This document shows, piece after piece, positions 1 through 16,248 of a stretch of 64,000 nucleotides of DNA. The translations under genes were made by a program, and so were the position numbers. The stretch's first letter is position 1. Every line of letters begins with the position of its first letter. Under the pieces are notes generated by a model. That model saw only the letters and a list, made by a program, of their open reading frames with translations, was not told the origin of the DNA and did no database searches. Source of the DNA: Pseudomonas berkeleyensis (GTDB lineage: Bacteria > Pseudomonadota > Gammaproteobacteria > Pseudomonadales > Pseudomonadaceae); contig NZ_CP059139.1 in NCBI RefSeq assembly GCF_014109765.1, positions 2,108,001-2,172,000 of the forward strand. Direction: 5' to 3'.

Positions 1-59
1 GGCCGCTCGCATTGGCGGCAGGGTACGTTCTACTCATCAGGGATATGGCAGCGGCATGA
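1..59 (+). CDS. 3' end of an upstream gene, partial
   Basis: A frame is open from the window edge (codons start at base 3). It encodes a short hydrophobic tail ending LLIRDMAAA and stops with TGA at 57-59. That stop overlaps the ATG of the next gene as ATGA, the same coupling used between several genes in this cluster, which is why I think it is a real gene end and not chance. Only about 18 residues are visible, so no family can be named. It would be the first visible member of the plus-strand operon. Confidence 0.4.
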   Translation, partial: PLALAAGYVLLIRDMAAA

Positions 60-2383
60 CCGAACAGATTCTGGCTTTTTCCACCAAGGCGGGTTCGCTC
101 GCGCTGCTCGACGGTCGCCTGCACAGTGCCTGCGTATTGCCGCAGGTGATCTTCAGCGTCGCGCAGTGGCGCGAGAGCGCTGAAGCCTGTCTGGCCGAGG
201 TACGCGCCAAGGGCTGGGCCAGCATGGCCGTGCGCAGCAGCAGTAGCCGTGAGGATGGTGAGCAGTCGTCGGCCGCCGGGGCGTTCGACTCCTGCCTCAA
301 CGTCGACACCTACGGCTTGTCGGCCGCCATCGAGCAGGTGCTCGAGTCGATGGGCGGGCAGGGCGCCAGTGCGCACGATCAGGTCTTCGTCCAGCCCATG
401 GTCGGCGACGTGCGCATGGCCGGGGTTGGGTTTGGCATCGACCCGGCCACGCTGGCGCCGTACTTCGTGATCAACTACGACGAGAGTAGCGGACGCACCG
501 ATGCCGTGACCTCCGGGCGCTCCAACGAGCTGCGTACTTTCTATGCCCATCATGCGGCCGGTGAATTGCCGGCCACGCTGGCCCCAGTGGTGGCGCTTCT
601 GCGCGAGTTGCAGGCGTTGTTCGGGCGCCAGGCCATCGATATCGAATTCGCCGTGGACGCGCAGGCACGGCTGTACCTGCTGCAGGTACGACCGCTGGTG
701 CTCGGCGCCGAACCGGCCGATGTCCAGGCGCATGGCAAGCTGGTTCGCCTGATTCACGATCGCATTGCTCAGGGCATTCGCCCGCAACCCTTCCTGCATG
801 GCGAGCGCACCGTGTTCGGGGTGATGCCGGACTGGAATCCAGCCGAGATCATCGGTGTGCGACCACGGCCGCTGGCGCTGTCGCTGTACCGTGAGCTGGT
901 GACCGACATGATCTGGGCCTACCAGCGCAACAACTACGGCTACCGCAACCTGCGCAGCTTCCCGCTGATGCTGCATTTTCACGGACTGCCCTACATCGAT
1001 GTGCGTGTCAGCTTCAACTCCTTCATCCCGCGCGACATCGACGGTGCCCTGGCTGACAAACTGGTCAATTACTACATCGAGCGCCTGTTGGCCGCGCCCA
1101 ATCTGCATGACAAGGTCGAGTTCGAGATCGTCTTCTCCTGCTACACGCTTGATCTGCCGCAACGCCTGCAGGCCCTGCAGGATGCGGGGTTCACCGAGGC
1201 CGAGTGCCGGCGCCTGGCCGACAGCCTGCGCGAGCTGACCAACCGTATCGTCCACAACGAAACCGGCCTGTGGCGCACTGACCGACAGAAGCTCGACGTG
1301 CTGTTGGCCAGACGCGACGAGATCCTCGGTGCCGATACCGATCCGGTGACGCGCATCTACTGGCTGCTGGAAGACTGCCGTCGTTACGGTACGCTGCCGT
1401 TCGCCGGGCTGGCGCGGGCCGGCTTCATCGCCGTGCAATTGCTGCGTTCGCTGGTCACCGTGGGCGTGCTCGACCAGAGCGAGTACGACGCGTTTCTCAA
1501 CGGTCTATCCACGGTCAGCGGGCAGATGACTCAGGATCTGGCGCAGCTGGATCGCACCACCTTCCTGGCGCGCTACGGCCACCTGCGGCCAGGCACTTAC
1601 GACATCCTTTCGCCGCGCTACGACGAGGCGCCCGATCTGTATTTCGACTGGCACAATCTGGCGGTCGAGGCGCGCCACGACAGTGCCCGTTTCGCCCTGT
1701 CGCTGGCGCAGATGCGCGAGATCAGCCGCCTGCTCAGCGAGCACGGGTTGTCCCATGACGTGGTGGGATTGTTCGATTTCCTCCAGGCCGGCATCGAATT
1801 GCGCGAGTACGCCAAGTTTGTGTTCACGCGCAATCTGTCCGATGCGCTGTCGCTGTTTCGTGAATTGGGCCATGACCTGGGCTTCAGCGCCGAGGACATG
1901 TCCTACGCCAACATCCAGTTGATCAAGGAGCTGCATGCTGCCAGCGCCGATCCCCGGGAACTGATCGCTGCCAGCATCGAGGAAGGGCGCCGGCGCTACG
2001 GCGAAACCTGCCAGATCGTCTTGCCGCCGCTGATCACCCGCGCCGAAGACGCCTTCTGTTTTCACCTACCGCAGGCCGAGCCGAATTTCATCACCCAGCG
2101 CCAGGTGACTGGCGCGGTGATGGACTACCACCAGCGCGACCAGTTGCACGGGGCCATCGTCATGATTCCCAGCGCCGACCCTGGGTTCGACTGGATCTTC
2201 TCTCACCGCATCGCTGGCTTCATCACCGCCTATGGCGGTACCAACTCGCACATGGCCATCCGCGCCAACGAACTTGGCCTGCCTGCCGTGATCGGTGCAG
2301 GAGAGGTGCTTTATCGCAAGTGGGCTGCCGCGCAGATGCTCAACATCGACTGCGCTAACCGACGCGTCGAGGTGTTGCGGTGA
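56..2383 (+). CDS. L-glutamine kinase-like dikinase (Cj1418 type)
   Basis: 775 residues. Residues about 55-220 match the ATP-grasp (PPDK_N) domain of PEP synthase: AVRSSSSREDGE near 58-69, VFVQPMV near 110, and DIEFA...LLQVRP near 197-215. The last 90 residues are the swivelling phosphohistidine domain with GGTNSHMA; His732 is the predicted phospho-acceptor. The PEP-binding TIM barrel of PEP synthase and PPDK is absent and a roughly 450-residue middle region replaces it, so this is an ATP-driven phosphotransferase on another acceptor. The family with this layout beside the next two genes is the Campylobacter jejuni glutamine kinase Cj1418, which makes L-glutamine phosphate, AMP and Pi. The glutamine substrate is inferred from gene context. 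The frame stays open to the window edge, but ATG 56 overlaps an upstream TGA. The stop overlaps the GTG of the next gene. Confidence 0.75.
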   Translation: MTEQILAFSTKAGSLALLDGRLHSACVLPQVIFSVAQWRESAEACLAEVRAKGWASMAVRSSSSREDGEQSSAAGAFDSCLNVDTYGLSAAIEQVLESMGGQGASAHDQVFVQPMVGDVRMAGVGFGIDPATLAPYFVINYDESSGRTDAVTSGRSNELRTFYAHHAAGELPATLAPVVALLRELQALFGRQAIDIEFAVDAQARLYLLQVRPLVLGAEPADVQAHGKLVRLIHDRIAQGIRPQPFLHGERTVFGVMPDWNPAEIIGVRPRPLALSLYRELVTDMIWAYQRNNYGYRNLRSFPLMLHFHGLPYIDVRVSFNSFIPRDIDGALADKLVNYYIERLLAAPNLHDKVEFEIVFSCYTLDLPQRLQALQDAGFTEAECRRLADSLRELTNRIVHNETGLWRTDRQKLDVLLARRDEILGADTDPVTRIYWLLEDCRRYGTLPFAGLARAGFIAVQLLRSLVTVGVLDQSEYDAFLNGLSTVSGQMTQDLAQLDRTTFLARYGHLRPGTYDILSPRYDEAPDLYFDWHNLAVEARHDSARFALSLAQMREISRLLSEHGLSHDVVGLFDFLQAGIELREYAKFVFTRNLSDALSLFRELGHDLGFSAEDMSYANIQLIKELHAASADPRELIAASIEEGRRRYGETCQIVLPPLITRAEDAFCFHLPQAEPNFITQRQVTGAVMDYHQRDQLHGAIVMIPSADPGFDWIFSHRIAGFITAYGGTNSHMAIRANELGLPAVIGAGEVLYRKWAAAQMLNIDCANRRVEVLR

Positions 2384-2982
2384 GGGTGGTGCTGGTCAGT
2401 CAGCGCGTCGATGTGCTGGCTGACCGCGGCGAGCGCCGCGATGCACTGGATCAGCGCCTGGCGGACTGGCTGGCGAGCCACGGGTTGTTGCCGGTGCCGG
2501 TGCCCAATCGGGCCAAGCGCCTGGACGCCCTGTGGACGCAACTGAAGCCCGCCGCCGTGGTGCTCAGCGGCGGCAATGACCTGGCCGAGTACGGCGGCGA
2601 TGCCCCGGAACGTGATGCTGTCGAACGCGCGCTGCTGGCGCGGGCCATGGCCGAGCAGGTGCCGCTGTTTGCCCTGTGCCGTGGTGCGCAACTGCTGCTC
2701 GATGCCTTCGGCAATCGCCTGGAACGGGTGGGCGGGCATGTCGGTACGCGTCACCGTCTGCTGATCGACGGACGTGAGACCGAGGTCAACAGCTACCACC
2801 AATGGGGGTGTCGTTCGCTGGCGGCGCCCCTTGAAGTCCTGGCACGCAGTGAAGATGGCGTGATCGAGGCCTTCTTTCATCCGCAGCTGCCGCTGCTGGG
2901 CGTGATGTGGCACCCCGAGCGGGAAGCGCCCTTCGCCGAGCTGGACGGCCTGCTCCTGAATCGCTGTCTGAACAAGGAATGA
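2380..2982 (+). CDS. Class I glutamine amidotransferase fold hydrolase (gamma-glutamyl-CDP-amidate hydrolase-like, Cj1417 type)
   Basis: 200 residues, peptidase C26 / class I glutamine amidotransferase fold. The nucleophile elbow is FALCRGAQLL with Cys100. The rest of the triad is His178 and Glu180 in GVMWHPERE. VLSGGNDLAEY near residues 61-71 is the usual oxyanion region of gamma-glutamyl hydrolases. GTG start at 2380 overlaps the stop of the kinase gene (GTGA), so translation is coupled. In Campylobacter the protein at this place (Cj1417) releases glutamate from CDP-L-glutamine to give cytidine diphosphoramidate. That specific reaction is inferred here from the neighbours; the alternative is a generic gamma-glutamyl-GABA hydrolase. 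Confidence 0.72.
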   Translation: MRVVLVSQRVDVLADRGERRDALDQRLADWLASHGLLPVPVPNRAKRLDALWTQLKPAAVVLSGGNDLAEYGGDAPERDAVERALLARAMAEQVPLFALCRGAQLLLDAFGNRLERVGGHVGTRHRLLIDGRETEVNSYHQWGCRSLAAPLEVLARSEDGVIEAFFHPQLPLLGVMWHPEREAPFAELDGLLLNRCLNKE

Positions 2983-2989
2983 GCTTTCC

Positions 2990-3730
2990 ATGACACGTGC
3001 CATCATCCTCGCTGCCGGGCGCGGCAGCCGCATGGGCGAGCTGACCGCCGAACAGCCCAAGTGCTTCGCTCGCCTGCACGGTCGTCGTCTGCTGGACTGG
3101 CAACTGCAGGCGCTGCGTGGAGCCGGTATCGAGCGCCTGGCCCTGGTGCGGGGGTATCGCGGCGAGTGCTTTGACGAGCCGCTGACCTACTTCGAAAACC
3201 CCCGTTGGCAACAGAGCAACATGGTGCGCACCCTGCTGGCCGCAGATGCCTGGCTGTCAGCGGAGGCCTGCATCGTCAGCTATAGCGACATCTTCTACAG
3301 TGCCGCCACCGTGGCGACCCTGAGCCGGGTCGAGGCCGACCTGGCGATTGCCTATGACCCGCACTGGCATGCGCTGTGGTCACAACGTTTCGCCGACCCG
3401 CTGGCCGATGCCGAGAGTTTCCGTCTGGATGCCAGCGGTAATCTGGCAACCATTGGCGAGCGTTGTCAGAGTGTCGCTGAGATCGAGGGACAGTACATGG
3501 GCCTGCTCAAGTTCACCCCGTCCGGCTGGGCACAGGTGCGCGAGTTGTTGCTGCAGCGAGGCGACGAGGCGATAGACCGTTTGGACATGACCAGCCTGCT
3601 GCGCTTGATGCTGCAGGCCGGCCTGCCAATCGCTGTGTCACCGGTACAAGGCCCCTGGGGGGAGGTGGACGCTGCCGATGACCTGGCGCTCTATCACCGA
3701 CTGTTCACCCCAGAGGCGCTACACGCCTGA
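2990..3730 (+). CDS. Nucleotidyltransferase (CTP:phosphoglutamine cytidylyltransferase-like, Cj1416 type)
   Basis: 246 residues, NTP_transferase fold. The N-terminus AIILAAGRGSRMGELT followed by PKCF is the nucleotide-binding signature LAAGxGxR...PK. YSDIFYSA near residue 100 supplies the metal-binding aspartate region, and GPWGEVDAADDLALY near the end is typical of phosphocholine cytidylyltransferase-like enzymes. It starts 7 bases after the amidotransferase stop. In the Campylobacter pathway the equivalent (Cj1416) joins L-glutamine phosphate to CMP from CTP. Sequence alone cannot exclude another phosphorylated acceptor such as phosphocholine. Confidence 0.72.
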   Translation: MTRAIILAAGRGSRMGELTAEQPKCFARLHGRRLLDWQLQALRGAGIERLALVRGYRGECFDEPLTYFENPRWQQSNMVRTLLAADAWLSAEACIVSYSDIFYSAATVATLSRVEADLAIAYDPHWHALWSQRFADPLADAESFRLDASGNLATIGERCQSVAEIEGQYMGLLKFTPSGWAQVRELLLQRGDEAIDRLDMTSLLRLMLQAGLPIAVSPVQGPWGEVDAADDLALYHRLFTPEALHA

Positions 3731-3745
3731 ACGACTACGCGTTCA
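3728..3745. terminator. Short inverted repeat spanning both convergent stops
   Basis: TGAACG (3728-3733) and CGTTCA (3740-3745) form a 6-bp stem with a 6-base loop. The two arms contain the stop codons of the convergent cytidylyltransferase and formyltransferase-like genes. There is no T-tract, so a bidirectional terminator is only a possibility. Confidence 0.25.
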
Positions 3746-4468
3746 GTCTGCCGCGCCGGGCAGGCTGAGCAGCGCCAGGTGCTTGAGCACCGGGTGAATG
3801 ACGTAGTAGGTGTTGCCCTGTTCGGCTTCCTGCTGCAACACCACGTCCAGTTCGCCGCTGGCCTGATAGCGGCGCAGCACCTCCAGCAGCAGGTCGGCGC
3901 GGATCGCCGTGTCGTAGCGGCGGTCGATGTCGGTGCCCAGCGGCGGTGCCGGGTAGCGTTTGCGAGCCAGTACCGGGCCGGTGTCGATTTGGGTATCGAG
4001 CAGAATGGCGCTGGCGGCGCAGACACCTTCTTCCAGCAGGCTGTAGTAGACGGTCGTGCTGCCACGGTAGTCGGGCAGCCAGCCGCTGTGCACGTGCAGC
4101 AGCGGGATGCCCAGTTCGATCAGGGGCGGTTTGACGATCTGCCCGCCATACCCTGAGAAGATCACCAGGCGCGGTGCCCGCTCACGCACGGCATCGATGA
4201 CCTGCTGATAGTTGATGTCGCGTGTTGCCAGGCAGGTGATGGGTACATCGCAGTCGGCCAGGGTGCGGCTGAGGGGTATGCCCAGATCCGGCAGCAGAAC
4301 TCCCATCAGCTCTCGGGCAGGCTCGCTCGGCGTCGTGGGGGATTGCGGCGCCTCGCCGAGCAGCAAGGCGTGGGAGGGCATCAGGCCATGGGCAGCCAGG
4401 GTCTGCACGTAAGCCTGGCTGCGCGCACTGTGCGCAGCGATCAGCAGAACGTCGTCGAGGTGGGTCAT
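3743..4468 (-). CDS. Formyltransferase-family protein with altered active-site motif
   Basis: 241 residues, related to the catalytic domain of methionyl-tRNA and GAR formyltransferases. GIPLLHVHSGWLPDYRG (residues 120-136) aligns with the family motif NxHxSxLPxYRG, and IDTGPVL (161-167) carries the conserved Asp162. The catalytic Asn of the family is His125 here, so formyl transfer may be altered or lost. Start ATG at 4468 was chosen because it overlaps the upstream stop (ATGA); a longer frame to 4657 runs inside the neighbour. It is the last gene of the four-gene minus-strand operon. It may formylate an amino sugar or modify the phosphoramidate group; neither is shown. Confidence 0.7.
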   Translation of the reverse strand: MTHLDDVLLIAAHSARSQAYVQTLAAHGLMPSHALLLGEAPQSPTTPSEPARELMGVLLPDLGIPLSRTLADCDVPITCLATRDINYQQVIDAVRERAPRLVIFSGYGGQIVKPPLIELGIPLLHVHSGWLPDYRGSTTVYYSLLEEGVCAASAILLDTQIDTGPVLARKRYPAPPLGTDIDRRYDTAIRADLLLEVLRRYQASGELDVVLQQEAEQGNTYYVIHPVLKHLALLSLPGAAD

Positions 4469-5040
4469 GGGGCGAGCTCCACGTTGGCCTGCGATGCAAT
4501 GCGAGCGACCCAGTCCTGTTCGGCCGCGATCAGCCAGGCGAGCTGAGCGCCCTGGGCCGGGCTCAGGCGCGGGAGAATCGAGATCAGGCTGTCGATGACC
4601 TTGAGCAAACCATTGAGAAAGGGCAGGGCGCCAGGCTGCTCGGACAGGTGCAGGCACAGCGCGGCGAATTGCAGGTAGAGTTCCAGGTCATCGTAGCCGC
4701 TGTCGGCGACCGCTTTGTAATTCGCGTCATAGCGGCGGTGCAGGCGCTTGCTGACCTCGAAGCGTTGCAGCAGACGTTCGGCCAGGCGCCGCTTGCTCGG
4801 TGCATCCGCGGCCGCGTGCAGCAGGTCGGCCAGCAGCGCAGCCGTATCCACATGGTGTGCGTTTCGTTCGGCGGCCACTGGTAACGGCACGGCCTGCGCT
4901 GGTGGCAGTTGCATCAGCGCCGCCTGACGGCTCGCACGCCAGGCCGGGAAAAAGGCTGCGCCGTGGTACTGGCTGTAGAAGTAGGTGTTGCGTTCCTCGA
5001 GCCGATCACCCTGGCTGTAGGGGTAGTCGATGTCGCTCAT
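4465..5040 (-). CDS. Hypothetical protein of the phosphoramidate locus
   Basis: 191 residues, no family recognised. It begins MSDIDYPYSQGDRLEERN, has a Pro/Ala-rich stretch near residues 45-60, and is then largely helical with conserved-looking FYSQYHGAAFF near 21-31. No signal peptide or membrane segment is seen, so it is probably cytoplasmic. Both ends overlap neighbours by four bases (ATGA), so it is translationally coupled between the APS-kinase-like and formyltransferase-like genes and very likely works with them. Confidence 0.75.
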   Translation of the reverse strand: MSDIDYPYSQGDRLEERNTYFYSQYHGAAFFPAWRASRQAALMQLPPAQAVPLPVAAERNAHHVDTAALLADLLHAAADAPSKRRLAERLLQRFEVSKRLHRRYDANYKAVADSGYDDLELYLQFAALCLHLSEQPGALPFLNGLLKVIDSLISILPRLSPAQGAQLAWLIAAEQDWVARIASQANVELAP

Positions 5041-5558
5041 GCCATCGATCCCTGTGCTCGTTGCAGGATGTCACGGGCCAGTTCGGCGATGTCGGCTGGT
5101 TGGCTGGTGTCGATTTCCAGATCCGCTGCGCTGGGGGGCGGGAAGGGAATATCCACGCCCACCATGTCGCTCATCTCGCCGGCCAGCGCCTGGCGGTAGA
5201 GCCCCTTGGTGTCTCGTTCGACCAGCGTCTGCATCGGCGGGTTGAGGTAGACCTCGTAGTAGTGGCGAAAGCGTGTGCGGTTGAGCGCACGCAGATCGGG
5301 GAAGATCGACAGGATGCTGCACACCACGTTGATCTCCTGCGCATCGAGCCAGGCGCACAGCTCGAAGATGCGCTCGGCGTTGAGACGCCGCCCTGCCAGG
5401 CTGTAGTCCGCGGCCTGGGTGTCCTGGCGGAAGATGCGCCGAACCTCGTCGCCGTCCACCAGCAGAGTATTGGCTGCCTGCTGCTTCCATTGGCGGGTGA
5501 TTTCGCGACCGAGCGTGGTCTTGCCCGAGCCGGACAGGCCGATCAACCAGATGACCAT
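5037..5558 (-). CDS. APS-kinase-like protein, probable CDP-amidate kinase (Cj1415 type)
   Basis: 173 residues, P-loop kinase of the APS kinase family. Walker A is GLSGSGKTT at residues 7-15, followed by LLVDGDEVRRIF, NAERI, INVVCSI and RDTKGLY in the APS-kinase order. Start ATG 5558 overlaps the stop of the upstream transferase gene by one base; a longer frame to 6089 lies inside that gene. No sulfate-assimilation genes are near. Its partners are the Cj1416/1417/1418 counterparts, and Cj1415, also annotated cysC, phosphorylates the 3'-OH of cytidine diphosphoramidate. I therefore infer that role. A true CysC making PAPS cannot be excluded by motif. Confidence 0.72.
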   Translation of the reverse strand: MVIWLIGLSGSGKTTLGREITRQWKQQAANTLLVDGDEVRRIFRQDTQAADYSLAGRRLNAERIFELCAWLDAQEINVVCSILSIFPDLRALNRTRFRHYYEVYLNPPMQTLVERDTKGLYRQALAGEMSDMVGVDIPFPPPSAADLEIDTSQPADIAELARDILQRAQGSMA

Positions 5559-6622
5559 CAGCCTCTCCCTGCCAGGGAGCGGGCACTGTTGGCGATCGCC
5601 ACAGCGGCTACCTGACCGGCATAACCATAGAACGGTGCGAAGTAGTACTGGCTGAGGGTCTTGCGGATCGGTCGCTGGGCCTCCCACAGACCGGCATCCT
5701 CCAGCAACTCTTCGAGGCGACCGCTGTGCTGGTTGCCAAGATGAGGCAGGTATTTGCGCAGCCAGATGTCCGAGGAGTCCTCGCCCATCAGCGGGTCGGC
5801 TTCGGCGTTGGGCAGGTCGAGGAGCAGCACGTTGCGATCGGTGTAGATGCCGCCGAAGGCGGAGCCACCGTAGTCGCACAGCAGGAAGTCGGCGAGCTGG
5901 AACAGCTCGACGTTGTCGATATGTTCGCGGATCACGCAGGTGAAGCGCTCCAGCTCGCGCATGCGCGCCGGCTCGTCGGTGATGGTGATCGGGTGGGGTT
6001 TGACGATGACGTTGTAGCGCGCCTGCAAACGTGCGACTGCGGCAGCGAACAGGTCGATCGAGCTGAGCGTGCTCCAGGTCGGCAGCCACACCACGGTCTG
6101 CCGGCTGGGGTCGAGCTTCAGCTCGGTCAGGCGCACCGTGCGATCCACAGGCTGATTGAAGAAACGATCGAAGCGAGGGTAGCCCATCTGGATCTTCAGC
6201 GTGTCTTGGCAGAATTCCAGATGCTCAGCCTGATAAGGACCGAAGCAGAGGATGCTGTCGTACACCTGGTTCCAGGACTGGAAGTTCCAGCCAGCCTTAC
6301 CGTTGGCATACATGAACCGCAGGTTGTAGCGGCCGATGGACTTGGGCAGGTAGGGTGAGTCGGGGCCACGCAGGTAATGCTGGGGGAAGTTCGACACCAG
6401 GGTGGTGTAGCGCTCTTTGCGCGCGAGCATTTCCCGTGCGTCGCGCCACGGCAACTGATACCGCTGGCAGCCGGCGACCACGGCGTCGATGTCCTGCTGC
6501 GTCTTGCCGGTAACGGCGATCTCCACACTGCCTGCCGGCAGATGCTGCCAGACCGCATGGTAGTGATTGAACATCTCAGGGTTGTGAATCAGAAAACCGA
6601 AGCGTTCGAGTTCGCTAGCCAT
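5558..6622 (-). CDS. CDP-glycerol glycerophosphotransferase-like transferase
   Basis: 354 residues, resembling the TagB/TagF CDP-glycerol:glycerophosphotransferase family. It has WLPTW at about 179-183, VKPHP at 207-211, and the C-terminal block CDYGGSAFGGIYTDRNVLLLD at about 249-269. Members transfer a phosphorylated group from a CDP donor with release of CMP. It is the first gene of the minus-strand operon and overlaps the kinase gene by one base (TGATG). Because the pathway beside it produces a CDP-linked phosphoramidate, it is the best candidate for the transferase that moves this group onto a glycan. Transfer of a glycerol-phosphate-like group is the alternative. Confidence 0.7.
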   Translation of the reverse strand: MASELERFGFLIHNPEMFNHYHAVWQHLPAGSVEIAVTGKTQQDIDAVVAGCQRYQLPWRDAREMLARKERYTTLVSNFPQHYLRGPDSPYLPKSIGRYNLRFMYANGKAGWNFQSWNQVYDSILCFGPYQAEHLEFCQDTLKIQMGYPRFDRFFNQPVDRTVRLTELKLDPSRQTVVWLPTWSTLSSIDLFAAAVARLQARYNVIVKPHPITITDEPARMRELERFTCVIREHIDNVELFQLADFLLCDYGGSAFGGIYTDRNVLLLDLPNAEADPLMGEDSSDIWLRKYLPHLGNQHSGRLEELLEDAGLWEAQRPIRKTLSQYYFAPFYGYAGQVAAVAIANSARSLAGRG

Positions 6623-6750: not shown

Positions 6751-7215
6751 ATGGCATCGATCCATCCGTCCGCGGACGTCAAAAGCCAGTTGATTGGTGA
6801 GGGCACCACGGTCTGGCAGTTCGTGGTGATCCTCGCGCAGGCGCGCATCGGCCGCGACTGCAATATCAACGCCCACTGCTTCATCGAGAACGACGTGGTG
6901 CTCGGTGATCGGGTTACGGTGAAATGCGGCGTGTACCTGTGGGACGGCCTGCGTGTCGCCGACGATGTTTTCATCGGTCCCAACGCCACCTTCACCAATG
7001 ACCGATTGCCGCGTTCCAAGCAATATCCCGACAGCTTCCCGCAGACCGTGATCGAACGCGGCGCCTCCATTGGTGCCGGGGCGGTCATCCTGCCAGGCCT
7101 GACCATCGGCGCCGGTGCCATGGTCGGCGCTGGCGCGGTGGTGACCCGCGACGTTCCTGCCCGCGCGCTGGTCGTTGGCAACCCTGCACGTATCGTGCGT
7201 TACCTGGATGAGTGA
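6751..7215 (+). CDS. Hexapeptide-repeat N-acetyltransferase (FdtC/QdtC-like)
   Basis: 154 residues of left-handed beta-helix hexapeptide repeats, for example [26 protein letters not shown] and [10 protein letters not shown]. The family includes the acetyltransferases that finish dTDP-3-acetamido-3,6-dideoxyhexoses. ATG 6751 ([10 protein letters not shown]) fits the family start; a longer frame to 6694 adds an unlikely leader. The next gene overlaps or abuts its stop. With the aminotransferase and ketoisomerase downstream, the predicted role is N-acetylation of dTDP-Fuc3N or dTDP-Qui3N. Confidence 0.8.
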
Positions 7216-7216
7216 C

Positions 7217-8326
7217 ATGTTTCCTTTTCTCGATCTGGCCGGGATCAACCGGCGCGATGAAGCGGCACTGACCGAGGCGTTTCAGCGGGTGCTGCGTTCT
7301 GGCTGGTATGTGCTGGGTACCGAAGTCGCCGCGTTCGAGGCGGAGTACGCGGCTGCCTGTGGAGTAGCGCATGCCATCGGTGTGGGCAACGGCCTCGATG
7401 CACTGACCCTGATTTTGCGTGGTTATCGGCAGTTGGGGCGCCTGGCCGAGGGTGACGAGGTGATCCTGCCCGACAACAGCTTTGTCGCCACCGCGCTGGC
7501 CGTCAGTGAGGCCGGGCTGACGCCGGTCTTGGTCGAGCCAGCGCTGGACACGTTCAACATCGATCCGGCCGCCGTCGAGGCCGCTATCAGCCCGCGCACA
7601 CGGGCAATCATCGCCGTGCACCTGTACGGGCGTCTGGCTGACATGCAGCGTCTGCGCGCACTCGCCGATCAGCACGGGCTGTTGCTGATCGAGGATGCGG
7701 CTCAGGCGCATGGCGCAGTGGACGCCCGCGGGCACGCTGCGGGTGCCCTCGGCGATGCGGCAGGCTTCAGTTTTTTCCCGGTGAAGAACCTTGGCGCACT
7801 TGGCGATGCCGGTGCTCTGACCACCAACGACGATGCCCTGGCCGAGCAGGTGCGCAAGCTGCGTAACTACGGCTCCAGCCGCAAGTATGTGCACGAGTTG
7901 CAGGGTATCAATTCGCGCCTGGACGAGTTACAGGCTGCGCTTTTGCGGGTGAAGCTGGCGCGCCTGGCCGATGATGCCCAGGCCCGACGCGACCTGGCGG
8001 CGCGGTATCTGGCCGGCATCGACAACCAGCATCTGCAACTGCCCCAAGTTCCGCACGTGTCCGAGAGTCATGTCTGGCACCAGTTCGTCATGCGCTGCGA
8101 AGCACGAGAGGCCTTGCAGACGCATCTCGAGCGTCATGGCGTACCGAGCCTGATCCACTACCCGATTCCCATCCACCGCCAGGCCGCTTACGCCGAGTTT
8201 GCCGATCGGCACCTGCCGCTCTCGCAACGCCTGGCTGGCGAGGTGCTCAGCTTGCCGCTATACCCGGGAATGGCAAATGAATGGGTCGAGCAGACCATTG
8301 AAGCGTGCAACGCTTTCCGCGTCTGA
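7217..8326 (+). CDS. fdtB: DegT/DnrJ/EryC1 sugar aminotransferase (FdtB/QdtB-like)
   Basis: 369 residues, PLP-dependent nucleotide-sugar aminotransferase of the DegT/DnrJ/EryC1/StrS family. The PLP lysine is Lys190 in FSFFPVKNLGALGDAGA. The PLP-binding aspartate lies in LLIEDAAQAHGA, and the N-terminal FPFLDLAGIN is characteristic. Expected reaction: amination of dTDP-3-oxo-6-deoxyhexose at C3 using glutamate. An in-frame ATG at 7208 overlaps the acetyltransferase stop and would add three residues. The role as the 3-aminotransferase rests on the ketoisomerase next door. Confidence 0.85.
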   Translation: MFPFLDLAGINRRDEAALTEAFQRVLRSGWYVLGTEVAAFEAEYAAACGVAHAIGVGNGLDALTLILRGYRQLGRLAEGDEVILPDNSFVATALAVSEAGLTPVLVEPALDTFNIDPAAVEAAISPRTRAIIAVHLYGRLADMQRLRALADQHGLLLIEDAAQAHGAVDARGHAAGALGDAAGFSFFPVKNLGALGDAGALTTNDDALAEQVRKLRNYGSSRKYVHELQGINSRLDELQAALLRVKLARLADDAQARRDLAARYLAGIDNQHLQLPQVPHVSESHVWHQFVMRCEAREALQTHLERHGVPSLIHYPIPIHRQAAYAEFADRHLPLSQRLAGEVLSLPLYPGMANEWVEQTIEACNAFRV

Positions 8327-8474
8327 TGGGAAGGTGGTTCGAGTTTTGCTTCGGAGCCACAACGACCCTGTCGATCATGTTTTCTTGACGCAGCGACTGC
8401 ACGGGGCTCGGTCACCTGGAAGGTGATCGAGAGGCAGGCGCGAATGGGTTACACCAGCGTATTTGGAGCGTTCT

Positions 8475-8885
8475 ATGTCTCTTCAGCACTGCAAGATCAT
8501 CGATCTGCCAATCGTCGAGGATCGGCGTGGCAACCTCACTTTCATCGAGGGAGGGCGACACATTCCCTTCGATATCCAGCGTGTCTACTACCTCTATGAC
8601 GTTCCCGGCGGCTCTCACCGCGGCGGCCATGCTCACAAGGGGCTGCACCAGCTGTTGATCGCCATGTCGGGCAGTTTCGACATCCTGCTGGATGATGGGC
8701 GAACCAAGTTCAAGTACCACCTCAACCGTTCCTATTACGGTCTTTATATTCCGCCGATGATCTGGCGCGAGATCGACAACTTCTCCAGCGGCTCGGTGTG
8801 CATGGTGCTGGCGTCCGAGCACTACAGCGAAGACGATTACTACCGCGACTACGACCAGTTCTCCCTGGCTGCCAGCGGCAAGTAA
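8475..8885 (+). CDS. fdtA: dTDP-4-oxo-6-deoxyglucose 3,4-ketoisomerase (FdtA/QdtA/WxcM-like)
   Basis: 136-residue cupin of the FdtA/QdtA/TylX sugar ketoisomerase family. Visible family features are DRRGNLTFIEGG near the N-terminus, VYYLYDVPGGSHRGGHAHK with the clustered histidines, and IPPMIWREIDNFS. It moves the keto group from C4 to C3 of dTDP-4-oxo-6-deoxyglucose so that the aminotransferase can act at C3. The 4-epimer outcome (galacto or gluco) cannot be told. Start ATG 8475 has GGAG six bases upstream; a TTG at 8463 is less likely. 148 bases separate it from the aminotransferase gene, so it may have its own promoter. Confidence 0.85.
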   Translation: MSLQHCKIIDLPIVEDRRGNLTFIEGGRHIPFDIQRVYYLYDVPGGSHRGGHAHKGLHQLLIAMSGSFDILLDDGRTKFKYHLNRSYYGLYIPPMIWREIDNFSSGSVCMVLASEHYSEDDYYRDYDQFSLAASGK

Positions 8886-14763: not shown

Positions 14764-16248
14764 ATGGCCCTTACAGTCAACACTAACGTTGCGTCCCTCA
14801 ACACTCAGCGTAACCTGAACACCTCGTCCAAAGGCCTGGATACTTCCCTCCAGCGCCTGTCCACTGGCTACCGTATCAACAGCGCCAAAGACGACGCTGC
14901 CGGCCTGCAGATCGCCAACCGCCTGACCAGCCAGATCACTGGCCTGGGCGTAGCGACCCGTAACGCCAACGACGGTATCTCCCTGGCGCAAACCGCTGAA
15001 GGTGCCCTGCAGCAGTCCACCGGCATTCTGCAGCGTATGCGTGACCTGGCCCTGCAGTCGGCCAACGGTTCCAACGGCGCCGTCGAGCGTTCCGCCCTTC
15101 AGGGTGAAGTCGCTCAGTTGCAACAAGAGCTGAATCGTATTGCCGATACCACCAGCTTCGGCGGTCGCAAGATCCTCGACGGCAGCTTTGGTTCGCAAAG
15201 CTTCCAGGTGGGTGCCAACGCCTACGAAACCATCAGCGTTTCCATTGGCTCCGCTGCCACTGATCGTATCGGTATCAACCGTGTGACCACCTCCGGTGGG
15301 GGCGCTCAGGCCATCGCTTCCGGTGCCGCTTTCAGTGCCACCTCGGGCAGCGCTTACAGCAGTGCTTCGTTCAACATCAACTCCAAACTGTCCGACGGTG
15401 ATGTCGCCATCTCCGGTGCAGCTAGCGGTTCTGCCAGCGATGTGGCTCGTGCCATCAACGCCAAGAGTGATGAAACTGGCGTGACCGCCAACGCCCGTAC
15501 CGTGGCAACGCTCGGCGGCATCACTGCTTCGGGTACCGTCTCCTTCAACCTGTCTGGTCTGACCAGCAAGTCTCTGGAGGCCGACGCTGCCACCGTGTCC
15601 GCTGTAGTGACCGATCTCTCCAACCTGTCCTCGCTGGCTGACGCCATCAACCGTGAAACTGGCAAAACCGGCATCTCGGCTGTTTCCAAAGGCGACACCA
15701 TCGAGCTGGTCAGCTCGCGCGGTGATGCGATCCAGATCACCAACTACGCTGGTTCGGGTGGTGCGACTCTGCAGACCAAGAGCTTCGATGGCGCAGACGA
15801 TGTCGGTGCTGTGGCTACCATCGTTGCCGGTGGCGGTGCTCGCGCCGACGGTCAGGTGCAACTCGAAGCAGCCGATGCCTTCCAGGTTACTGGCATGACT
15901 GGCGGTCTGGGTGCCGATGGCTTCAGTGAGCTGGATGCGGTGAATACCATCGACATCAGTACGGCGACTGGGGCGCAGAGTGCCCTGGGTATCATCAACG
16001 GTGCGATCTCCAACATCGACAGCCAGCGTGCTCAGCTCGGTGCCGTGCAGAACCGCTTCGAGAACACCATCTCGAACCTGCAGAACATCGCTGAGAACTC
16101 CTCTGCTGCTCGTAGCCGGATCCGTGACACTGACTTCGCTGCCGAAACTTCGGAACTGACCAAGAATCAGATCCTGCAGCAGGCCGGTACCGCGATCCTG
16201 GCCCAGGCCAACCAGCTGCCGCAGGCTGTTCTCAGTCTGCTGGGCTAA
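14764..16248 (+). CDS. fliC: Flagellin
   Basis: 494 residues. The N-terminal D0/D1 region ([23 protein letters not shown]-type block [25 protein letters not shown]) and the C-terminal D1/D0 region ([18 protein letters not shown], ending [10 protein letters not shown]) are canonical. The centre, roughly residues 175-400, is a variable Ser/Thr/Ala/Gly-rich surface domain and the likely site of O-glycosylation. ATG 14764 follows GGAGG; the frame extends to 14704 but lacks family similarity there. Exported unfolded by the flagellar secretion system with the FliS chaperone. Flanked by glycosyltransferase genes upstream and flaG downstream. Confidence 0.98.

Follow-up and report, generated by a model that had tools for sequence, protein, structure and literature searches.

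A predicted CDP-phosphoramidate cassette with a formyltransferase-like gene in the flagellin glycosylation island of Pseudomonas berkeleyensis

A seven-gene cassette occupies positions 56-6622 of the DNA analyzed here, a 64,000-nucleotide stretch of Pseudomonas berkeleyensis (assembly GCF_014109765.1, single 5.65-Mb contig NZ_CP059139.1, positions 2,108,001 to 2,172,000 of the forward strand; hereafter the window). On a modest balance of probability, we read it as a unit that makes cytidine diphosphate (CDP)-phosphoramidate, likely phosphorylates it, likely caps it with a one-carbon, formyl-type group, and passes it to the flagellin glycan. The product on that glycan would likely be a phosphoramidate whose one-carbon cap is perhaps a formyl group. 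This reading is built on gene content, order and overlaps, conserved residues, gene fusions, the mutual exclusion of FMT and methyltransferase genes in the examined loci, and the disagreement of the GK tree with the KIN tree, all of which can be seen directly.

Two gene groups converge in the cassette: GK, GAT and CYT on the forward strand, and FMT, U191, KIN and GPT on the reverse strand (Table 1). Each group reads as an operon because its genes overlap, by 4 bases for GK/GAT, FMT/U191 and U191/KIN and by 1 base for KIN/GPT; these overlaps depend on the start codons that we chose. A preliminary description of this DNA had placed a complete four-gene pathway (GK, GAT, CYT and the kinase) at 56..5558. 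Its four open reading frames are all present, but the unit runs to 6622 and the set had left out GPT, U191 and FMT, the latter two at 3743-5040.

In the proposed pathway, GK would N-phosphorylate glutamine with ATP, CYT would form CDP-glutamine with CTP, and GAT would convert CDP-glutamine to CDP-amidate and glutamate, as homology and conserved active sites suggest for each of the three. With less assurance, KIN is predicted to add a 3'-phosphate. FMT, together with U191, may modify the P-NH2 group or its activated form with a folate one-carbon donor, and GPT, judged by its family, would pass the group on to a hydroxyl and release the cytidine nucleotide. From position and neighboring genes, the acceptor would be a flagellin glycan containing a 3-amino-dideoxy sugar. 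The order of the reactions that follow the glutamine kinase is taken from paper titles, from model names (for the hydrolase, the name of its model) and from general knowledge of the pathway. Because FMT and its partner occupy the place of the Campylobacter-type methyltransferase, the flagellar decoration is likely to be a novel form of this rare phosphorus-nitrogen group, which is best known from Campylobacter capsules. What is new beyond the preliminary description is the flagellar setting and a predicted exchangeable cap block with a formyltransferase-like family of altered, H-H-D triad. The logic of the cassette also lends a reading to three previously unnoticed genes, among them a member of this changed-triad subfamily and a candidate CDP-amidate transferase.

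GK, GAT and CYT resemble the Campylobacter phosphoramidate enzymes

The comparison genome was that of Campylobacter jejuni strain 414. GK is predicted to be an L-glutamine kinase of the Cj1418 type from its full-length homology and its phosphohistidine residue. The two GK proteins are 42% identical over 783 columns (642 bits), and on model NF004508 the window protein scores 981.8 bits and its C. jejuni counterpart 1161.7 bits. A Pfam scan gave PF01326 and PF00391 and no further match, so GK lacks the barrel of phosphoenolpyruvate (PEP) enzymes, in line with the ATP-grasp plus phosphohistidine architecture described earlier. His732, also named then, corresponds to C. jejuni His737 and is kept in all sequences of a 46-member alignment (the window, C. 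jejuni and 44 others), as are R60, D67, W260, N261, E264, H351, D352 and R511. Identification as PEP synthase or rifampin phosphotransferase was rejected, with best scores of 53.7 and 39.9 bits against cut-offs of 850 and 999.

GAT is 31% identical to its C. jejuni counterpart (97.8 bits). As expected of a Cj1417-type protein, its gene lies between GK and CYT, and the previously noted Cys100, His178 and Glu180 are kept in 46/46. Its best model among the 20 listed is gamma-glutamyl-CDP-amidate hydrolase (NF045546, 114.2 bits), compared with 55.6 bits for gamma-glutamyl-gamma-aminobutyrate (GABA) hydrolase. By score GAT falls outside NF045546 membership, yet it is predicted to work like that hydrolase. 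For CYT, near-full-length homology (33% identity over 251 columns, nearly end to end; 167 bits) and shared residues predict a phosphoglutamine cytidylyltransferase of the Cj1416 type: D100, D123, W130, R133, D140, E142, E225 and D227 are invariant in 46/46, and 37 columns are conserved in at least 95% of the sequences. Phosphocholine cytidylyltransferase was discarded, since that best PDB match spans 60 residues only and the C. jejuni CYT match is nearly full length.

The GK-GAT-CYT order is the same in the window and in C. jejuni 414, where two methyltransferase genes lie beside GK and an APS-kinase-like (adenylyl-sulfate kinase-like) gene lies about 3 kb on. We compiled 45 loci (the window, 35 others from the genus and nine others from the class, some cut by contig ends). 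The three genes occur together in 45/45, in the Campylobacter order in 44; in L095, GAT lies upstream. All three are present in five of six plasmid loci, the sixth carrying GK alone.

A chance juxtaposition of unrelated enzymes from familiar families (a PEP synthase, a GABA hydrolase, a phosphocholine cytidylyltransferase and a CysC) deserves almost no credence. Present-day annotations do use these family names: the Azospirillum lipoferum 4B set is annotated as adenylyl-sulfate kinase, class I S-adenosylmethionine-dependent methyltransferase, PEP-utilizing enzyme, gamma-glutamyl-GABA hydrolase family and phosphocholine cytidylyltransferase family. Under such generic names routine annotation misses the pathway, as the preliminary description had anticipated. 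The model scores, the near-full-length similarity to C. jejuni, the invariant residues and the 45/45 co-occurrence, however, all oppose chance adjacency.

The kinase is the weakest link of the set

Identity of KIN with the Cj1415 type is weakly supported. KIN is 29% identical to the C. jejuni 414 kinase (93.2 bits), and both pass NF004041, on which KIN scores 153.6 bits (cut-off 127). A CysC-type APS kinase was rejected less firmly than the other routine names, at 104.7 bits on TIGR00455 against a cut-off of 138.7. Two other APS kinase genes in the genome score higher on PF01583 (217 and 168.6 bits, KIN 99). The P-loop Gly and Lys residues are kept in 33/33 cassette kinases (that of L094, under the score limit, was left out). 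In the KIN tree these 33 stand apart from two CysC-type rows (support 100/99), with the window and C. jejuni kinases in different subclades. Of the earlier match to Cj1415-Cj1418, then, the parts on GK, GAT and CYT stand. These three assignments also hold against closer kinship to rifampin phosphotransferase, phosphocholine cytidylyltransferase or true CysC, and only the kinase is weak on this count.

Distribution and locus architectures

At a threshold of E<=1e-60, and with the window's own genome counted in both sets, GK is found in 36/398 genomes of the genus and 10/369 of the class. It is also found in 14 plasmid records (Azospirillum, Vibrio and others), six of which were inspected; the annotations seen on plasmid records are PEP-utilizing enzyme, PEP/pyruvate-binding protein, or pyruvate, phosphate dikinase. 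A search of about 5.8 billion protein sequences gave at least 6809 relatives among 7996 scored, and some of the matches listed carry the name glutamine kinase. Near-identical proteins (97%) bear the name Pseudomonas sp. A GK relative of 33.5% identity lies at 676-2994 of MT837632.1, a 9.5-kb unannotated record labeled Bacteriophage sp.

Several architectures recur in the genus. Type A (six genomes) has the window layout at flgL. In type A' (five loci) the genes run in one direction as GPT-KIN-U191-FMT-GK-GAT-CYT, colinear in 5/5, and three of these cassettes (L066, L067 and L069) have an ammonium transporter gene on one side and a gene of the Mg-chelatase family (ComM-like) on the other; the flanks were scanned for L067 and assigned by clustering for the other two. 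Type B (15 loci) reads c3-KIN-MT-GK-GAT-CYT, where MT is a methyltransferase and c3 a protein of 388-420 residues with no Pfam or NCBIfam match in the one scanned (L045). A ComM-like flank is present in 9/15 type B loci. It is thus a common insertion site, shared by nine methyl-type (L045-L052, L055) and three formyl-type cassettes, and the ammonium transporter gene is present in 11 of these 12. L044 sits at the flgL site with KIN, MT and a PF04464-type gene. Homology of c3 to GPT or to c23 was unsupported (hhalign probabilities 2.9 and 14.2), as was, by hhalign, homology of a transferase-like reading frame of C. jejuni 414 to c3 or GPT. That frame (L008, 2838-3695; 285 residues) covers positions 174-431 of the 596 in the O-methyl phosphoramidate transferase model, under the cut-off.

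Type C (five loci, L060-L064), which is without KIN, has a CYT-like stretch in frame with GK (profile matches of 70-78 bits). GAT and CYT follow, and after them come genes for a PF04464-type protein, a YidC-like protein and a U191-FMT fusion. A Pfam scan of the CYT-like/GK protein of L060 gave no nucleotidyltransferase domain. The YidC-like protein is a 60KD_IMP protein, and a sulfatase-family protein occurs at high score in 4/5 type C loci.

In type D (four loci, L070-L073; 12 kb around GK), GK, GAT and CYT follow genes for a major facilitator superfamily (MFS) transporter, a CDP-alcohol (phosphatidyl)transferase and an ATP-grasp ligase, an arrangement suggestive of a route to some small phosphoramidate compound. 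By analogy, the window set could make a small secreted phosphoramidate rather than a surface decoration. We regard this as very improbable: the window cassette is without the CDP-alcohol transferase, the ATP-grasp ligase and the MFS transporter, and its surroundings are a flagellin island that includes glycosyltransferase genes.

FMT, U191 and GPT

FMT matches PF00551 at 29 bits (cut-off 26.1). Its predicted structure (pLDDT, the predicted local distance difference test score, 81.6) matches formyltransferases, with a best Foldseek E value of 8.5e-10 and query TM-scores of 0.5-0.6, and so the model points to a formyltransferase fold. We take Asn-His-Asp to be the catalytic triad of 10-formyltetrahydrofolate (10-formyl-THF) formyltransferases, and FMT departs from it. 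His125 (241-residue numbering) occupies the alignment column of the catalytic Asn in GART-type enzymes; the other two members of the triad are His127 and Asp162. This H-H-D arrangement is found in 19/19 cassette FMTs, and N-H-D in one control formyltransferase (L097). The LPxxRG motif after the start of the triad and the catalytic Asp are kept.

Among the 398 genus genomes, a search with FMT gave 11 matches at 377-419 bits, all in GK loci, and the next match scored 48 bits. The weak matches beyond this gap are the type C fusions, G155, G364, G362 and a remnant in G323. Of the matches in G155, G362 and G364, the one examined, in G362, is a different formyltransferase with a normal N-H-D triad, and the genes next to it begin in the manner of FdtA and DegT. 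In G323, a genome with no GK match, a 236-residue reading frame (locus L096, 9941-10651) matches the type C fusion over its FMT portion only. We read it as a decayed copy with L060-like flanks. As an FMT independent of GK it was rejected, being shortened, confined to that part of the fusion and flanked as in L060.

U191 has no Pfam or NCBIfam match, and its predicted structure (pLDDT 81.3) matches no PDB fold at E<=0.001. At least 96 homologues were found at E<=1e-5 among 7997 scored, under names that include Pseudomonas, Aeromonas, Shewanella putrefaciens, Herbaspirillum and Chitinilyticum. U191 occurs in 11/398 genus genomes, the same 11 that hold the strong FMT matches, at most about 3.4 kb from GK, and in 2/369 class genomes (the window's own and G504); all are GK-positive. 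Fusions tie it to FMT. In the type C protein c29 (453-458 residues, five loci), the first third resembles U191 (hhalign probability 96, E 4e-9) and the remainder FMT (97.5, E 7e-12); four unrelated control comparisons gave probabilities <1. In L087, from another family of the class, a 445-residue fusion combines U191 (1-186, E 3e-42) with FMT (209-444, E 2e-67). Its gene adjoins KIN and the core, and it scores 21.2 on PF00551, under the cut-off. In L089, KIN is fused to GK.

GPT passes the PF04464 gathering cut-off in hmmscan (34 bits, cut-off 22.1) and adjoins KIN in 11/11 A/A' loci. A model scan found no CJJ1420-type phosphoramidate transferase among 10 window proteins. A genome search for this transferase gave no match, and its controls likewise gave none.

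FMT takes the methyltransferase position, and GK and KIN differ in history

In the 45 loci, 19 carry MT, 19 carry FMT, none carries both and seven carry neither (the four type D loci, L088, L090 and L094). U191 accompanies FMT in 17/19 cases, the exceptions being L092 and L093, and occurs in 0/26 of the remaining loci; KIN is present in 33/45. The six further plasmid loci hold MT in three cases and FMT in none. In the window, no MT-model match lies within 8.5 kb of GK. From this distribution we infer that FMT with U191 takes the place of the methyl-lineage methyltransferase in the cassette.

The trees of GK and KIN conflict. In the GK tree (midpoint-rooted, with several long rows of unsure place), the window clade is nested in the methyl-type clade to which C. 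jejuni belongs (99/98), and methyl-type L044 is the sister of the window clade (100/99). In the KIN tree the type A clade of the window joins A' (100/99), apart from the methyl-type kinases. A GK tree constrained to hold A and A' together was rejected (approximately unbiased test, p-AU 1.9e-5; quick tree, 35 rows). KIN therefore appears to have a history other than that of GK. The same would hold for the whole block GPT-KIN-U191-FMT, with the histories of GPT, U191 and FMT taken from their constant company with KIN. The window fits a chimera of a methyl-lineage core and a formyl-lineage cap block, which agrees with its two converging operons.

A more specific proposal can be offered tentatively: the H-H-D FMT with U191 would formylate the phosphoramidate itself with a folate-derived group, as a second finishing route in bacteria beside O-methylation by S-adenosylmethionine, the flagellin glycan would carry formyl-phosphoramidate, and the block of cap, kinase and transferase would be exchangeable with respect to the core.

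Points against a capped phosphoramidate, and alternative readings

Several observations weigh against the reading that we favor. Among the enzymes, GAT stays below the NF045546 cut-off of 250, which the C. jejuni 414 protein passes at 327.2 bits. KIN scores nearly as high against a CysC-like protein of its own genome (88.6 bits) as against the C. jejuni kinase, and NF004041, whose cut-off the two kinases exceed, carries the name adenylyl-sulfate kinase. Although GPT passes hmmscan, a six-frame genome search with PF04464 gave nothing at E<=0.001. The plasmid locus with GK alone (L101, Cupriavidus taiwanensis) has no GAT or CYT match in 20 kb, and nifK lies about 7.5 kb off. The 19/19/0 distribution does not amount to 45 independent events, because several loci are close relatives; on the GK tree, the starred branches require three or more changes of the FMT label and two or more of the MT label. 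The models used for counting were, moreover, built from part of the same loci.

With its altered triad, FMT might not be a formylating enzyme at all. One alternative retains the cap with a different group or donor, such as carbamoyl or hydroxymethyl transfer from methylene-folate, and the His that replaces the catalytic Asn in every cassette FMT speaks for it. The retained LPxxRG motif and Asp, and a fold that matches 10-formyl-folate enzymes, speak for formyl transfer instead, and we consider a non-formyl cap improbable.

The neighborhood suggests another alternative, unlikely but with some claim to attention, in which the core makes CDP-phosphoramidate, GPT attaches it plain, and FMT and U191 are mere neighbors that N-formylate the 3-amino sugar of the glycan. 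Sugar N-formyltransferases do belong to the formyltransferase fold. FdtA-like genes lie near the cassette in 8/11 A/A' loci (the window, L039-L043, L065 and L068), and DegT-like genes in the same loci except L065. In the three cassettes between the ammonium transporter and ComM-like genes, however, FMT and U191 are present although 20 kb of sequence there gave no FdtA- or DegT-like match. The restriction of strong FMT matches to GK loci, the exclusion between FMT and MT in the examined loci, and the separate N-H-D enzyme beside the FdtA- and DegT-starting genes of G362 likewise argue against this alternative.

The flagellar setting

The flgL gene ends 68 bases upstream of GK. Downstream of the cassette follow the genes for an acetyltransferase, a DegT aminotransferase, an FdtA-like ketoisomerase and a large glycosyltransferase, and then fliC (Table 1). 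Cassette and glycan genes thus fall between flgL and fliC, and this interval is a flagellin glycosylation island. The set adjoins flgL in 6/6 type A genomes, the window included, and in one methyl-type genome, L044. The P-N bonded surface modification of the preliminary description is narrowed by this position to a predicted modification of the flagellin glycan.

Table 1 Features of the cassette and its downstream neighbors in the window (aa, amino acids)
Feature	Coordinates	Strand	Basis
GK, L-glutamine kinase-like, ATP-grasp and phosphohistidine domain, 775 aa	56..2383	+	Similarity to C. jejuni 414 GK; NF004508; His732
GAT, class-I amidotransferase-fold hydrolase, 200 aa	2380..2982	+	Best model NF045546; C100/H178/E180
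CYT, predicted phosphoglutamine cytidylyltransferase, 246 aa	2990..3730	+	Similarity to C. jejuni 414 CYT; conserved columns
FMT, formyltransferase-like, H-H-D replacing N-H-D, 241 aa	3743..4468	-	PF00551; fold match
U191, mostly helical, fused to an FMT domain elsewhere, 191 aa	4465..5040	-	Co-occurrence with GK; fusions
KIN, APS-kinase-like, predicted CDP-amidate 3'-kinase, 173 aa	5037..5558	-	NF004041; FMT-type KIN clade
GPT, CDP-glycerol glycerophosphotransferase-like, predicted phosphoramidate transferase, 354 aa	5558..6622	-	PF04464; KIN neighbor
Hexapeptide acetyltransferase, amino-sugar context	6751..7215	+	PF00132; TIGR03570 best but under cut-off
DegT/DnrJ aminotransferase, amino-sugar context	7217..8326	+	PF01041, E 2e-107
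FdtA-like sugar ketoisomerase, amino-sugar context	8463..8885	+	PF05523, E 1e-57
Multidomain glycosyltransferase, GT61 and three GT2 stretches, immediately upstream of fliC, 1852 aa	8957..14515	+	
fliC flagellin, predicted acceptor	14764..16248	+	PF00669 and PF00700

Comparison with known systems

A literature search over titles, abstract beginnings and some passages found no phosphoramidate on flagellin in Pseudomonas or flagellin-glycosylation papers, and the term 'N-formyl phosphoramidate' was not found. The listings that match 'glutamine kinase' with 'Pseudomonas' show no such locus, and those for phosphoramidate, formyltransferase and capsule terms show Campylobacter papers only. A Clostridium flagellar paper was set aside as a phosphoramidate lead, the match being an entry in its reference list. 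P-N bonds are rare in biology, and the presence of GK in 36/398 genus genomes and 14 plasmid records stands against a C. jejuni-specific view of this enzyme, still expressed in a passage of a 2022 review (PMC9561416). The same review, in a passage on phages, states that many C. jejuni phages recognize the phosphoramidate group. A flagellar version would for that reason bear on flagellum-seeking phages and on flagellin recognition.

The closest known system is the O-methyl phosphoramidate (MeOPN) pathway of the C. jejuni capsule, for which passages of PMC3907429 and PMC6429109 name Cj1415-Cj1418 and the transferases Cj1421/Cj1422. According to a passage of PMC6429109, the product of the glutamine kinase is N-phosphoglutamine; the cytidylyltransferase and diphosphoramidate kinase activities of C. 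jejuni appear as titles in the reference list of PMC12409886. Both systems have an APS-kinase-like protein and homologous GK, GAT and CYT, whose genes are ordered alike. Unlike the MeOPN locus, the window cassette has no methyltransferase and holds FMT, U191 and GPT instead, its KIN belongs to another clade, and it lies between flgL and fliC rather than in a capsule locus.

FMT shares the fold, the LPxxRG motif and the catalytic Asp with 10-formyl-THF formyltransferases (Fmt, GART, ArnA and the sugar N-formyltransferases), and differs from them in its H-H-D triad and in having U191 as partner or fusion in most of its loci. Likewise, GPT passes the cut-off of the CDP-glycerol glycerophosphotransferase family, but its match is weak for a protein of 354 residues and it is linked to CDP-amidate-type genes.

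For the predicted acceptor, precedents may be seen in two systems. Phosphoramidate without O-methyl is described in the lipopolysaccharide of Xanthomonas campestris and Shewanella in a passage of PMC3907429. These are P-N surface decorations without the methyl group, and Shewanella putrefaciens is among the names under which U191 relatives appear; the decorations sit on lipopolysaccharide, whereas that of the window is predicted on flagellin. The b-type flagellin glycan of PAO1 carries rhamnose and a 209 Da phosphate-containing group, as a passage of PMC3958885 reports. It bears phosphorus on flagellin, as predicted for the window, but in the form of phosphate by that account.

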